Made by a program: the position numbers and the translations under genes
IMG/VR virus record: IMGVR_UViG_3300044733_001499
Coordinates: 1 to 20,077 of that record
DNA length: 20,077 nucleotides
Strand: one strand, 5' to 3'
Origin: a virus
The notes under the pieces: model-generated
Databases searched by the model: none
The model's input: only the letters and a program-made list of their open reading frames with translations
Told to the model about the DNA's origin: nothing
Part shown: piece by piece, positions 9,248-19,449 of the stretch
Layout of the letters: the number at the start of each line of letters is the position of its first letter
How positions within the stretch are numbered: the first letter of the stretch is position 1

Positions 9248-9260
9248 CAGTTAATTTGTA

Positions 9261-9278
9261 ACAGGAACAATGTATTGA
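9261..9278 (-). promoter_or_regulatory. Motif A: TCAATA-N3-TGTTCCTGT upstream of leftward promoter
   Basis: This 18-nt site reads TCAATA, three bases, TGTTCCTGT on the minus strand. The same motif, with identical spacing, occurs at 9485-9502 and 10244-10261 on the plus strand. Here it lies 13 bases upstream of the leftward promoter's -35 element, centred near position -57. That would suit an activator or an auxiliary operator. The flanking hexamers are not promoter-like in this copy. Confidence 0.6.
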
Positions 9279-9300
9279 AAAGTGGTAACGTTTCCATTTT
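9278..9300. repeat. Repeated palindrome, copy 1 (core TGGtAACGTTtCCA)
   Basis: A 19-nt sequence, AAGTGGTAACGTTTCCATT (9280-9298), recurs exactly at 19082-19100 in the same orientation. Its 14-nt core is a palindrome with a single mismatched pair. Here it is extended by AAAA on the left and TTTT on the right, with one unpaired G. The other copy is extended by different but again complementary bases. It is probably an operator, with a nucleic-acid hairpin as the alternative. Confidence 0.7.
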
Positions 9301-9364
9301 GCCCTGAAAACCCGCATGTTTCCTAGGGGTGGCAATACATGGGTTGCCATGCTATTGTGGTGAT

Positions 9365-9474
9365 GAAGCTACCTGGTCGCTCTCTCTCTTTCTCCTCTGG
9401 CCAGGTTTCTTCGCAGCGGCGACGCTCCCGTGTGGGAGCTTGAGGGCGCGACGATCTCCGGCGCCCTCTTTTTT
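9365..9474 (+). ncRNA. Candidate small RNA with pyrimidine-rich loop and intrinsic terminator
   Basis: No convincing coding frame covers this stretch. It can fold into three hairpins in series: ACCTGG/CCAGGT (9371-9376 with 9401-9406) closing a 24-nt loop of almost only C and T; GCTCCC-GTGT-GGGAGC (9424-9439); and the terminator hairpin at 9442-9468 followed by six T. A weak promoter-like pair, TGGCAA (9330-9335) and TATTGT (9353-9358) with 17-bp spacing, would start it near 9365, giving about 110 nt. The TCTTTCTCC in the loop is complementary to Shine-Dalgarno sequences. The 5' end is uncertain. Confidence 0.45.
9442..9474 (+). terminator. Rho-independent terminator T1
   Basis: GAGGGCGC (9442-9449) and GCGCCCTC (9461-9468) form a perfect 8-bp GC-rich stem around an 11-nt loop, followed by six T (9469-9474). 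Orientation is rightward. It ends any transcript coming from 9240-9440 and insulates the promoter that follows at 9479. Confidence 0.85.
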
Positions 9475-9478
9475 GTCG

Positions 9479-9507
9479 TTGCTCTCAATATACTGTTCCT
9501 GTATACT
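9479..9507 (+). promoter_or_regulatory. Promoter with motif B as its spacer
   Basis: TTGCTC (9479-9484), a 17-bp spacer and TATACT (9502-9507) form a plausible sigma70 promoter starting near 9514. The spacer is the shared motif TCAATA-N3-TGTTCCTG(T) (9485-9502). Around it, TATAC (9489-9493) and GTATA (9501-9505) form a dyad, and CTCTCAATAT occurs twice (9482-9491 and 9506-9515), once on each side of the dyad. This density suggests an operator embedded in the promoter. Confidence 0.6.
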
Positions 9508-9513
9508 CTCAAT

Positions 9514-9859
9514 ATCGAAAGCGGATGTCGGCGAGTTCCCGGACTCACCACCGGATGAGAGAAAGCGCCGGACGCAGCGAGTAGTGACAGCCAGGAAAGA
9601 CTGGCAGCAACACGCATGAGGATTGGTTGGCTGCTGGAGATCGCGACGAAGGCAGTCAAATCAGCGGAGTGTCCTTAGTGACTAGGCGGATCATTGACCG
9701 ATCGCAGTCCTCAGTCGTGTTGCAATCTATTTGAATCTGTCCTACACTGTGCGCGTCACTGTGTCAGGCGGCGACAAACCCGAAGCCCTCAAGCTTTGGT
9801 TCTCTCCCTTCAGTGGGAACGTGCCTGACACACGGAGAGCCAAGCCTTGAGGGTTTTTT
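9514..9859 (+). ncRNA. Candidate 345-nt non-coding RNA ending in a three-way-junction terminator
   Basis: The interval between the promoter at 9479-9507 and terminator T2 lacks a believable gene. Frames across it have atypical composition and no ribosome-binding sites. It can form several local helices, for example GCCAG-GAAAGA-CTGGC (9590-9605) and a GATC-based hairpin at 9687-9706, before the elaborate 3' element at 9786-9859. CACTGTG is repeated at 9745-9751 and 9758-9764. TGTGTCAGGC (9760-9769) could pair over 10 bp with GCCTGACACA (9823-9832) inside the terminator element, giving an alternative fold. It could be a trans-acting RNA or an attenuated leader of the rightward operon. No Rfam family is recognised. 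Confidence 0.5.
9786..9859 (+). terminator. Terminator T2 with branched (three-way) stem
   Basis: The 19-nt arms at 9786-9804 and 9835-9853 pair with one mismatch and two G-U pairs. The top opens into two small hairpins, TCCC/GGGA (9805-9808 with 9815-9818) and CGTG/CACG (9820-9823 with 9831-9834). Six T follow (9854-9859), so the element should terminate rightward transcription. The branched top is unusual for a plain terminator, and the 3' hairpin overlaps a possible 10-bp pairing with 9760-9769. Confidence 0.8.
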
Positions 9860-9896
9860 CATGGCCGCTCGCCGCAGACCGTACCTTCCACGATAG

Positions 9897-10152
9897 CAGT
9901 GTGCCTGCATGGGCAGCCGAAGAGAAAACACTGGCAGAGGTCTCACCCGCCTACTAGCCACGCAGCCTGTCAGTGAGGGACTGCACAAGACGGAGGATCC
10001 CGTGGTGAGACATGTCCTCCATCGAGATAATCGCTGCCTTCTGGGAGCTGTAGCAAGTCTGGCAACATCAGACAAGTTCCAGCAGCTAGGAGTAGCTGGC
10101 ATCACAGGCTACTCTGGGCAGGTGTGATACTCCAGCGAGTGTGCTGCGCACT
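9897..10152. other. Hairpin-rich non-coding block between divergent operons
   Basis: No gene is supported here. Perfect inverted repeats are CAGTGT/ACACTG (9897-9902, 9928-9933) enclosing CTGC-ATGG-GCAG; GTCTCACC/GGTGAGAC (9940-9947, 10004-10011); GGAGGA/TCCTCC (9992-9997, 10015-10020), which crosses the previous pair as in an H-type pseudoknot; GTCTG/CAGAC (10057-10061, 10069-10073); CAGCTA-GGAG-TAGCTG (10083-10098); ATCACA/TGTGAT (10101-10106, 10123-10128); and AGTGTG-CTG-CGCACT with one G-U pair (10138-10152). It may be structured RNA or a replication origin. Strand and ends are unknown. The remainder up to about 10237 shows only AT-rich sequence. Confidence 0.4.
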
Positions 10153-10237
10153 TGGATCGGGCTATCACCCATGGGGACGCTATTGTCTTTTACTTTTCCA
10201 AGCCTATTGATTTTTTCTCAGCGATAAAAATTTACAA

Positions 10238-10266
10238 TTAGACTCAATAGTTTGTTCCTGTAGGAT
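10238..10266 (+). promoter_or_regulatory. Promoter of the rightward operon with motif C as its spacer
   Basis: TTAGAC (10238-10243), 17 bp and TAGGAT (10261-10266) align exactly with the promoter at 9479-9507, with the shared motif TCAATA-N3-TGTTCCTGT at 10244-10261 as spacer. The hexamers are weak matches to sigma70, which would fit a promoter needing an activator or a phage-specific factor. Start near 10273 leaves a leader of about 23 bases before the ATG at 10296, with GGGAGG in it. Confidence 0.55.
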
Positions 10267-10295
10267 CGCAACTGTTGTGCTTATGGGAGGATGAG

Positions 10296-10478
10296 ATGAA
10301 AGACGATCAAGACTTAGCTGAGGACTCAGGGCTATTGATGTACGAGCATCCAGGACTGCGAAGGTTTGCCAAGTTAATTGCTGAACGTGAGCGAGAGCGG
10401 GCGGCGATGATCTGCCACCAGCTGCGGGATGTAGAGTACGCAGCAGACGAGATAGCAAACCGCATCATGGCCAAATAG
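10296..10478 (+). CDS. First gene of rightward operon, ERERERAAMIC-type small protein
   Basis: The 60-residue protein from ATG 10296 has HPGLRRFAKLIAERERERAAMICHQLRD followed by an A-D-E-I-A-N-R-I end. This is the same layout as the AEREACA-type proteins of the leftward operon (7-210, 7874-8137, 8342-8584), so related genes lie in both arms. The start has GGGAGG at 10285-10290, five bases before the ATG. A reading beginning at TTG 10275 is less likely. The charged helix could pair with itself. Function unknown. Confidence 0.7.
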   Translation: MKDDQDLAEDSGLLMYEHPGLRRFAKLIAERERERAAMICHQLRDVEYAADEIANRIMAK

Positions 10479-18252: not shown

Positions 18253-18281
18253 TTGATTTTCCGGTTTTGTTCCGGTATCTT
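18253..18281 (+). promoter_or_regulatory. Candidate promoter of the packaging operon
   Basis: TTGATT (18253-18258), a 17-bp spacer and TATCTT (18276-18281) match sigma70 at 4/6 in each hexamer. The start near 18288 would precede the small-terminase gene by about 23 bases. CCGG occurs twice in the spacer, seven bases apart. Strength is uncertain, and a late-acting regulator could be needed. Confidence 0.45.
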
Positions 18282-18310: not shown

Positions 18311-19090
18311 GTGAGCGCGAGCGAACATCGGCACAACATGAACCGAAAAGCTATAAGAGATACAGTCAAGGCTAAAGGGATAGAAGGGGCTATGCGTATT
18401 AAAAAAGGTACGCTAACACCCAAAATGCGTAAGTTCGCAGAAGCGGTGGCATTGGGCAATACAGGGGCGGATAGTCTGCGTATCGCATATAACAGCAAAG
18501 CAAAGCCTAAAGCGGTGGGTGATATGGCGAGCAGGCTCAAGGCCGATGCCAGAATCAAATCGGAAATAGAACGGATAGAACGGGCTAACGAGCTGGCTGC
18601 GCTACATTCTGCCGCTGGCTTGCACTCCATCGTCATTTCAACCCTGGCCGAAATCGCCACTAATCCAGAAGCTAAAGACGCTACACGCATACAGGCGGTG
18701 CGTAGCATCGGGCAGCTGGTCGGGGTCGATGCGTTCAGGGAAACCAAGCGGGTCGAACACGTCAAGGACTCCGGCGAAATCAGAGCGCAGATACTGGATC
18801 AGCTGCGGACTATCACCATGCAAGCGGATAGTGTGCAGGAGGTCGATGCGACTGCGCTACTGGATGAGCTGACAGGGGCAGGGGCTGACGAGAGCGCCCA
18901 GGCAGACCCCACCGGAGGGGTACACCCCCAAACGGCAGCATGGGACTCCGGCTCTGACATACATAGTAGTTCACACCAACAGTCACCCCAAATATCGGAA
19001 ACCACCCCCATCTCTTCCAACACGCCCACCCCCCGGGGGGATATTTTGGAAGAAAAAGATGATGCTGCACCGCACCAACCGAAGTGGTAA
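18311..19090 (+). CDS. terS: Terminase small subunit-like protein
   Basis: The N-terminal half carries a helix-turn-helix of the terminase small-subunit type, with LTPKMRKFAEAVALGNTGADSLRIAYNSKAK followed by a second helix pair, then helices (ALHSAAGLHSIVISTLAEIA, DATRIQAVRSIGQLVG) and a low-complexity tail rich in S, T, P and acidic residues from about residue 185. In tailed phages this subunit recognises the packaging site and hands DNA to the large terminase, which is encoded 359 bases downstream. The GTG start at 18311 is the longest reading and has no good ribosome-binding site. ATGs at 18338 and 18392 (AAGGGG upstream) are alternatives. The stop lies in the repeated palindrome. Confidence 0.78.
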   Translation: MSASEHRHNMNRKAIRDTVKAKGIEGAMRIKKGTLTPKMRKFAEAVALGNTGADSLRIAYNSKAKPKAVGDMASRLKADARIKSEIERIERANELAALHSAAGLHSIVISTLAEIATNPEAKDATRIQAVRSIGQLVGVDAFRETKRVEHVKDSGEIRAQILDQLRTITMQADSVQEVDATALLDELTGAGADESAQADPTGGVHPQTAAWDSGSDIHSSSHQQSPQISETTPISSNTPTPRGDILEEKDDAAPHQPKW

Positions 19091-19103
19091 CGTTTCCATT
19101 CGG
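19079..19103. repeat. Repeated palindrome, copy 2
   Basis: The 19-nt sequence AAGTGGTAACGTTTCCATT (19082-19100) is identical to 9280-9298. The 14-nt core is flanked by CCGAA and TTCGG, which also pair, while the flanks of copy 1 are AAAA and TTTT. The site covers the small-terminase stop codon and the GTG start reading of the following gene. Confidence 0.7.
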
Positions 19104-19449
19104 GTCTGAGAACGTAGTGTTTATGCCAAATGATGTCGTGATGCAGCGCACCAAATTGTTGATTAACAGGGAAATGGTGGCCAAGAGGCGGGAGAAGACG
19201 TTTGCGGAATGTGAGGGGATGGAGATGACGCCGGCGCAGCGGGAAGTGTTTTTGATAGTGGATGAATGGTGGAAGCAGAAGGGATTTGGGCCTTCTATCA
19301 GGGATATATGTGAGTTACGTGGTAAGGGTGGGATGGGGAATACGAGTGAGATTATTGGGCGGTTGGTGAAGTTGGGGGTGTTGAAGAAGGTGAAGGGTGC
19401 GGTGAGGAGTGTGCGTCCGGTGTATATACAGTTTAGGTATCTTGAGTGA
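19084..19449 (+). CDS. LexA-type winged-helix DNA-binding protein without protease domain
   Basis: Residues about 48-115 (MTPAQREVFLIVDEWWKQKGFGPSIRDICELRGKGG, then SEIIGRLVKLGVLKKVKGAVRSVRP) match the LexA N-terminal DNA-binding domain, where GxxPSIRxI is the start of the recognition region. The Ser/Lys autoprotease half is missing, so it would not respond to RecA as LexA does. The GTG at 19084 is the longest start. ATGs at 19123, 19174, 19219 and 19225 are possible, the last having GAGGGG seven bases upstream. Its stop overlaps the large-terminase ATG (TGATG). The position between small and large terminase suggests a regulator of packaging genes, or a second DNA-recognition subunit. Confidence 0.7.
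   Translation: MVTFPFGSENVVFMPNDVVMQRTKLLINREMVAKRREKTFAECEGMEMTPAQREVFLIVDEWWKQKGFGPSIRDICELRGKGGMGNTSEIIGRLVKLGVLKKVKGAVRSVRPVYIQFRYLE

Follow-up and report, generated by a model that had tools for sequence, protein, structure and literature searches.

Two conserved structured RNAs, the first ending in a pseudoknotted terminator, at the divergence of early operons in metagenomic phages

What is encoded in the gene-free interval between two divergent phage operons, and does an alternative pairing seen there in one sequence matter? We analysed a 20,077-base IMG/VR virus record (the window), in which a 1-kb gene-poor stretch holding the interval under study separates a leftward operon, with an ERF annealing protein and a PD-(D/E)XK exonuclease-like protein, from a rightward operon with a ParB-like protein, a helicase and a Toprim protein. 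The usual place of repressor-type switches is between a recombination operon that runs leftward and a replication operon that runs rightward. A reading of the window from its sequence alone (the sequence-only reading) had proposed a single 345-nt RNA that starts at 9514 behind a promoter-like sequence at 9479-9507, ends in a branched terminator at 9786-9859 and contains a 10-bp pairing that competes with this terminator. All three elements are present at these positions; the strand TGTGTCAGGC (9760-9769, S1) is perfectly complementary to GCCTGACACA (9823-9832, S1') over 10 bp. In one sequence alone such a pairing is weak evidence, since by our estimate it has a chance of about 5% in 350 nt, and it is the homologues that settle the matter. 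What had been observed earlier is one part of a larger, conserved locus with two RNAs, called A and B here.

Homologues were collected in several ways. A helicase scan, confirmed by tblastn, gave 80 loci, and a terminator-arm pattern gave 14. When window positions 9250-10300 were compared with these loci using blastn, conservation ran on past the terminator; positions 9737-9860 and 9860-10180 are both conserved and non-coding. A 17-nt motif from the 3' part of B retrieved 104 IMG/VR stretches, nearly all of which contain B in an nhmmer search (69 copies non-redundant at 97%). A different B motif provided a fresh test set of at least 88 new loci, at least 63 of them with B, from which 25 non-redundant new copies were taken. 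Together, the two RNA families occur in no fewer than 94 non-redundant phage loci from metagenomes (69 + 25). A blastn search of the window region and two diverged B copies against 50,697 isolated-phage records returned no relative. The 58 matches of a pattern search in bacterial genomes were nearly all due to chance, and B was present only in a Burkholderiales MAG (L195). A second strong B match was absent among 399 Burkholderiales genomes, so no host is established beyond this Burkholderiales lead.

RNA A has the following features in the window.

9720-9748, + strand: sigma70-like promoter of RNA A, with TTGCAA (9720-9725), a 17-nt spacer and TACACT (9743-9748); start expected at about 9755.
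9755-9859, + strand: RNA A, about 105 nt, with a pseudoknotted intrinsic terminator at its end (covariation in 30 homologues, z -4.3, GU/AC asymmetry).
9760-9769, + strand: pseudoknot strand S1, near the 5' end of A; complementarity to S1' is kept despite sequence change.
9786-9853, + strand: terminator stem 9786-9804 / 9835-9853, with hairpins 9805-9818 and 9820-9834 (covariation).
9823-9832, + strand: pseudoknot strand S1', in the second small terminator hairpin; complementarity to S1 is kept.
9854-9859, + strand: terminator U-tract (T6); T4-T6 in all homologues of the window's terminator type.

In most terminator types of the homologues, a sigma70-like -10 element ends 11-15 nt before the S1 strand, and hexamer matches before S1 average 7.2 of 12, compared with 5.4 in shuffled segments. 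Because the homologues have this separate promoter before S1, the conserved unit is about 105 nt long (about 9755-9859), with S1 near its 5' end, and the single 345-nt RNA has to be given up. The start at 9514 belongs to the promoter of another conserved element, X (9514-9600). The promoter at 9720-9748 had been overlooked, as had the conserved non-coding block that continues to 10183, which is B.

Compared with dinucleotide shuffles, the fold of 9756-9859 has a z of -4.3, the terminator hairpin alone -4.7 and the whole 348-nt interval -3.3. Among 30 aligned relatives, 97% of the cells of the terminator stem are paired, and 11 of 22 pairs show double-sided changes. This stem opens into two small hairpins, and the branched terminator covaries in the homologues; the second hairpin (CGUG/CACG) is conserved with A-U swaps in two relatives, and a 5' hairpin of A (CUGU/GGCAG, with flanks GUC/GAC), the other local partner of the pairing strands, is conserved too. 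Wobble cells in A are GU in 68 cases and AC in 20, an excess that fits the + strand as the RNA. A has the GC-rich stem and U-tract of an intrinsic terminator, kept as structure, and the GC stem with a T-tract recurs in all terminator types. The interval does not code for protein: most indels are not multiples of three, relatives do not keep a frame open, and an antisense ORF at 9764-10105 was rejected as coding. Among the outcomes that the sequence-only reading had named as counting against it are a stem without covariation and conservation only as a protein frame; in the homologues the stem covaries and no protein frame is conserved.

The pairing between S1 and S1' is conserved in the same 30 relatives, with 98% of cells paired and double-sided changes in 7 of 10 pairs; one position shows U-A, A-U, G-C and C-G across relatives. 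The covariation score of A is 0.292, compared with 0.147 in shuffles (0 of 500 reach the observed value), and the signal collapses in slid-partner controls. S1 and S1' occur in ten or more variants among near relatives and as unrelated sequences elsewhere, and they are always complementary; TGTGACGGCA is one of the variant types.

The comparison was extended to 55 loci with a strong terminator upstream of B, within 9-25 nt in most; most of these loci were found through the far-3' B motif or the helicase gene, not through A. Clustered at 60% identity, their terminator arms form about 25 groups, many of which have no recognisable similarity in sequence. A crossing pairing of at least 7 bp is present in 87% of the 55 loci, compared with 11.7% for strands of mismatched loci and 6.1% for a shuffled loop; at 9 bp or more the values are 45%, 1.2% and 0.2%, respectively. 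Crossing pairs of unrelated sequence include ACGCTAATG/CATTAGCGT (L111), GGCAGAGAC/GTCTCTGCC (L142) and CTGCCAGGCG/CGCCTGGCAG (L170). In L113 the pair GTCGCAACC/GGTTGCGAC was read by eye, whereas the script counted CGCAACC. The result was replicated in the fresh set: 20 of the 25 new copies have a terminator, and a crossing pairing of at least 7 bp is found in 65% of these 20, compared with 8.5% in mismatched controls. No recognisable A lies close by in 5 of the 25 new B loci and in several loci with inserts. In the alignments, compensatory change preserves the S1-S1' pairing. The competing pairing of the sequence-only reading is therefore a genuine conserved pseudoknot in a phage RNA, and we consider it very probable that it is functional.

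Behind A, the window contains the second RNA.

9879-10183, + strand: RNA B, pseudoknotted, about 305 nt (nhmmer, covariance model at 256 bits, double-sided changes, GU/AC asymmetry).
9885-9922, + strand: helix 9885-9888 / 9919-9922 of B; 4 of 4 pairs doubly changed, with 3-5 pair types.
10004-10169, + strand: long-range pseudoknot of B, GGUGA (10004-10008) with UCACC (10165-10169), which joins a hairpin loop to the 3' end.

B measures about 245-270 nt in most homologues and about 250-320 nt overall. In 55 aligned copies, the 44 pairs that we named by hand are 92.9% paired. Double-sided changes number 400; shuffles give 111, and slid controls no more than 85. Since we drew the structure by eye from the same sequences, the slid control is lenient; the shuffle control is not a probability. 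Ten helix segments were counted. The loop of a CGY..RCG (CGU/ACG) hairpin pairs with the strand behind a GCC..GGC hairpin, three further hairpins covary, and a CUGCC/GGCAG helix is weaker (81%). The long-range pseudoknot is nearly invariant, which makes covariation uninformative there; its general form is GGUGA(UA)/(UA)UCACC, with GGUGAUAG/CUAUCACC in many relatives and GGUGAA/UUCACC in L079. In the well-aligned helices GU outnumbers AC by 28 to 6, which again points to the + strand as the RNA. The covariance model gave 256 bits for the window, itself a member of the model, and 121 bits for the Burkholderiales copy, which lies outside it. Single-sequence folding energies of B are no better than those of shuffles for most members, and the case for B therefore rests on covariation. 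Only 53 of 411 indels in B are multiples of 3, and open frames occur in a minority of the B sequences. That A and B are real structured RNAs seems to us close to certain.

A is followed by B within about 10-25 nt in most relatives. No recognisable promoter of B's own was found, nor was a terminator in a simple scan of the 130 nt behind B, which weak terminators may escape. B could come from an unrecognised phage-specific promoter or from read-through of X. ORF-bearing inserts between A and B in three loci (L104, L015 and L008) show that the two are separable units. Two unrelated short ORFs lie between or across A and B (L104, 7156-7422; L015, 547-999). In L006 (2446-2910), A is followed by a different long gene-free stretch, structured-RNA-like and without an Rfam match, instead of B. 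L094 (8820-9090, - strand) combines the 5' domain of B with another 3' part whose end is a strong terminator, with a gene behind it, an arrangement that suggests domain swapping in B.

Upstream of A, further conserved elements are present.

9441-9475, + strand: intrinsic terminator of a further upstream rightward RNA (8-bp stem, T6, -17.3 kcal/mol, z -3.4).
9479-9586, + strand: promoter (TTGCTC-17-TATACT, 9479-9507) and conserved element X (GAAAGCGGATG ... GACGCAGCGAGTAG), conserved in 10 aligned loci.
9484-9512, + strand: shared promoter/operator-like repeat TCAATA-N4-TGTTCCTGTA (repeat search and pattern scan).

The hairpin of X changes in sequence and keeps its pairing, and X is probably a third structured RNA, to judge from its alignment. 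Since X has no terminator of its own, a transcript from its promoter would read through X and A to 9859. The terminator at 9441-9475 ends a rightward RNA-like stretch with three hairpins (9360-9475). Further copies of the TCAATA-N4-TGTTCCTGTA repeat lie at 10243-10271 (+), 9260-9278 (-) and 18268-18277 (+, core only); the pattern scan found 4 compared with 0.86 expected. The repeat precedes the leftward operon, X and the rightward operon, its core lies just before the small-terminase gene, and the promoter of RNA A is without it. A 32-nt stretch (AAGTGGTAACGTTTCCATT...) occurs at 9280-9311 and, 10 kb away and with 84% identity, at 19082-19113, where it lies at the end of the small-terminase gene. 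A motif (Y)AASACGCATGRGGATTG, in up to two copies, is found at 9590-9625 of the window and in L016, L017, L034, L053, L087 and L095; it recurs in many loci, often behind a small hairpin such as CCAGGAAAGACTGG, and is possibly the 3' half of a CRISPR-type repeat or another RNA tag.

In most loci, A-B lies at the divergence of leftward recombination and rightward replication/methylation operons. Among the diverged loci that we inspected, most have genes pointing away from A-B on its A side and genes running in the direction of A-B on its B side; the left operon encodes Erf or Sak annealing proteins with RecE-like exonucleases, and the right operon DNA methyltransferases, PAPS reductase, helicase or primase. 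tRNA genes lie near A-B in a few phages (L176, 1900-2170; L181, 11180-11254; L150, 843-918), and the idea that A-B belongs to tRNA islands was dropped because this holds in few loci only. The rightward operon of the window-like clade has a start of its own: at a constant distance behind B, immediately ahead of the first rightward gene, lies a strong promoter (TTGACA-17-TATCCT/TACACT). In the window, the only promoter candidate behind B is weaker and is found beside the repeat copy at 10243-10271. The promoter of the window-like clade means that A is not a simple gate of the rightward operon's main promoter. The attenuator-like logic that the sequence-only reading proposed ahead of the rightward operon fits this position.

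A search of Rfam 15, proposed earlier for the interval, was run: no family exceeded the gathering threshold in the window or in 12 diverged loci, and 7 more loci gave tRNAs only. With a relaxed threshold, the best match over A was a microRNA, at 23.8 bits versus 51. The GOLLD and ROOL family covariance models had no match in the window or the tested loci, and no description of the A-B pair was found in the open-licence literature. A and B are a previously undescribed pair of structured phage RNAs, absent from Rfam.

Known systems resemble parts of the locus. The pT181/pIP501 plasmid leaders, P4 CI RNA and P1 C4 RNA are attenuators with mutually exclusive pairings before an intrinsic terminator. 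A likewise has competing pairings, with specificity strands that vary yet remain complementary; it differs in that no antisense gene was found on its opposite strand, it pairs its own 5' end with the terminator in a pseudoknot, and a structured RNA comes next. Like an attenuator, A has two conserved alternative pairings of the same strands before a terminator; that these exclude each other is argued from their overlap and the length of the linker. ToxI-type (type III) antitoxin RNAs are small, pseudoknotted tandem repeats followed by an intrinsic terminator and a toxin gene. A is also small and pseudoknotted, with an intrinsic terminator and a second product behind; unlike ToxI, it is single copy, its terminator lies within the pseudoknot, and B or a short ORF comes next, with no recognised toxin gene, so that we do not assign A to this type. 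Nearest in kind to B are GOLLD and ROOL, large pseudoknotted non-coding RNAs of phages and prophages; these ornate phage RNAs are of unknown function and often lie near tRNA genes (PMC12286853). A few B loci are near tRNA genes as well (L176), and most are without one. B differs from GOLLD and ROOL in its much smaller size (about 250-320 nt), in matching neither family in Rfam, and in its place at the divergence of early operons behind terminator A.

How the two pairings of A relate to each other depends on geometry and energy. The linker between S1' and the 3' arm of the terminator is only 3-4 nt long, a geometry in which a complete S1 helix and a complete upper stem should be mutually exclusive. 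Mean energies, in which the pseudoknot values are crude, are -47 kcal/mol for the nested fold, -45 for the pseudoknot with the full stem, if sterically possible, and, also as a crude estimate, -38 with S1 forced and no terminator. The nested and pseudoknot estimates are close, as a switch needs. At equilibrium the terminator is estimated to win in nearly all members, so that regulated read-through is assumed here rather than seen.

The reading that we put forward, tentatively, is that A is a conditional terminator that gates read-through into B. We infer this from the close energies of the alternative folds, the order in which the strands are made and the conservation of the alternative pairings. 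Since transcription reaches S1' ahead of the terminator's 3' arm, S1-S1' could form first. On arrival of the 3' arm, the terminator stem and the local CGUG/CACG hairpin would compete with the 10-bp S1-S1' helix. Where the terminator wins, transcription would stop, releasing a compact, stable sRNA whose 5' end is sequestered. Anything that keeps S1-S1' paired, be it a protein, a second RNA or rapid elongation, would let the polymerase read through and make B. As B has no recognisable promoter, its synthesis would then be set by A, and with both RNAs at the divergence of two early operons, the device would tune early phage expression.

It is possible, though we are doubtful, that A and B are instead independent RNAs that act in trans or bind proteins, with S1-S1' as a constitutive fold (5'-end protection or a protein site) and a terminator that only ends A. 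A does have its own promoter and a strong terminator; a paired S1, about 5 nt from the expected 5' end, would block 5'-dependent decay; the pseudoknot with the full terminator is estimated at only 2 kcal above the nested fold; and L094 has a B-like 5' domain, a strong terminator and then a gene. This reading leaves unexplained why B, without a recognisable promoter, follows A at about 10-25 nt in most types, and the 3-4 nt link between S1' and the 3' arm speaks against both full helices coexisting. A further reading, which we think unlikely, is that A-B forms a new kind of control system made of two RNAs, in which released A pairs through S1' with S1 of nascent A from the same phage type, enforcing termination, with B as the gated effector.

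Rather improbable, too, is that B is a cis leader of the rightward early operon, acting either through put-like, RNA-only antitermination or on translation, and that A is an attenuator upstream of it. B lies at the start of this operon, with no terminator found within 130 nt behind it. In a diverged clade (L118, L142, L169, L178, L172, L174 and others), B ends in GGGG-N5-CUAUG, and the AUG is the start codon of tiny ORFs (M[SAP]K..) or of small cysteine-rich genes, which in some cases overlap the start of the next gene. However, the window and the window-like clade lack this AUG (CCUAAAC, CUAUUG), and B as a translational leader was rejected as a general rule because the CUAUG end is absent from that clade, where moreover the TTGACA-17-TATCCT/TACACT promoter often lies behind B. 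The HK022 put RNA is about 70 nt long with two stem-loops (PMC9378689) and shares with B only the position at the start of an early operon; B is four times larger, has long-range pseudoknots and a terminator in front, and falls outside the put type in size and stem-loop number.

The ligand sensing suggested by the sequence-only reading found no supporting evidence. Alternative conserved pairings before a terminator would suit a riboswitch, but A has no compact, sequence-conserved pocket or ligand-binding core, the terminator types sharing architecture and hardly any sequence, and no Rfam riboswitch matched; we regard a riboswitch as very improbable. The conserved block could also act as DNA (an origin, packaging or recombination site), its palindromes being read as single strands; its location between divergent operons would agree with this, but the wobble asymmetry between strands in both A and the well-aligned helices of B, together with the promoter and U-tract anatomy, makes it a slight prospect at best. 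Terminators are common in phage intergenic regions, but an ordinary one with a chance inverted repeat is contradicted by the covariation and by replication in independent loci and has practically no chance of being correct.

Retention of a pseudoknot between an RNA's own 5' end and its terminator in about 25 terminator types strongly suggests that the pairing itself is under selection. Should released A pair in trans, S1/S1' would be a drifting, always self-complementary specificity code, and autogenous control, or immunity to superinfection, would be type-specific and need no protein repressor. If A gates B, phages of a widespread group would have in this locus a device, made of RNA alone, for early decisions or dosage.
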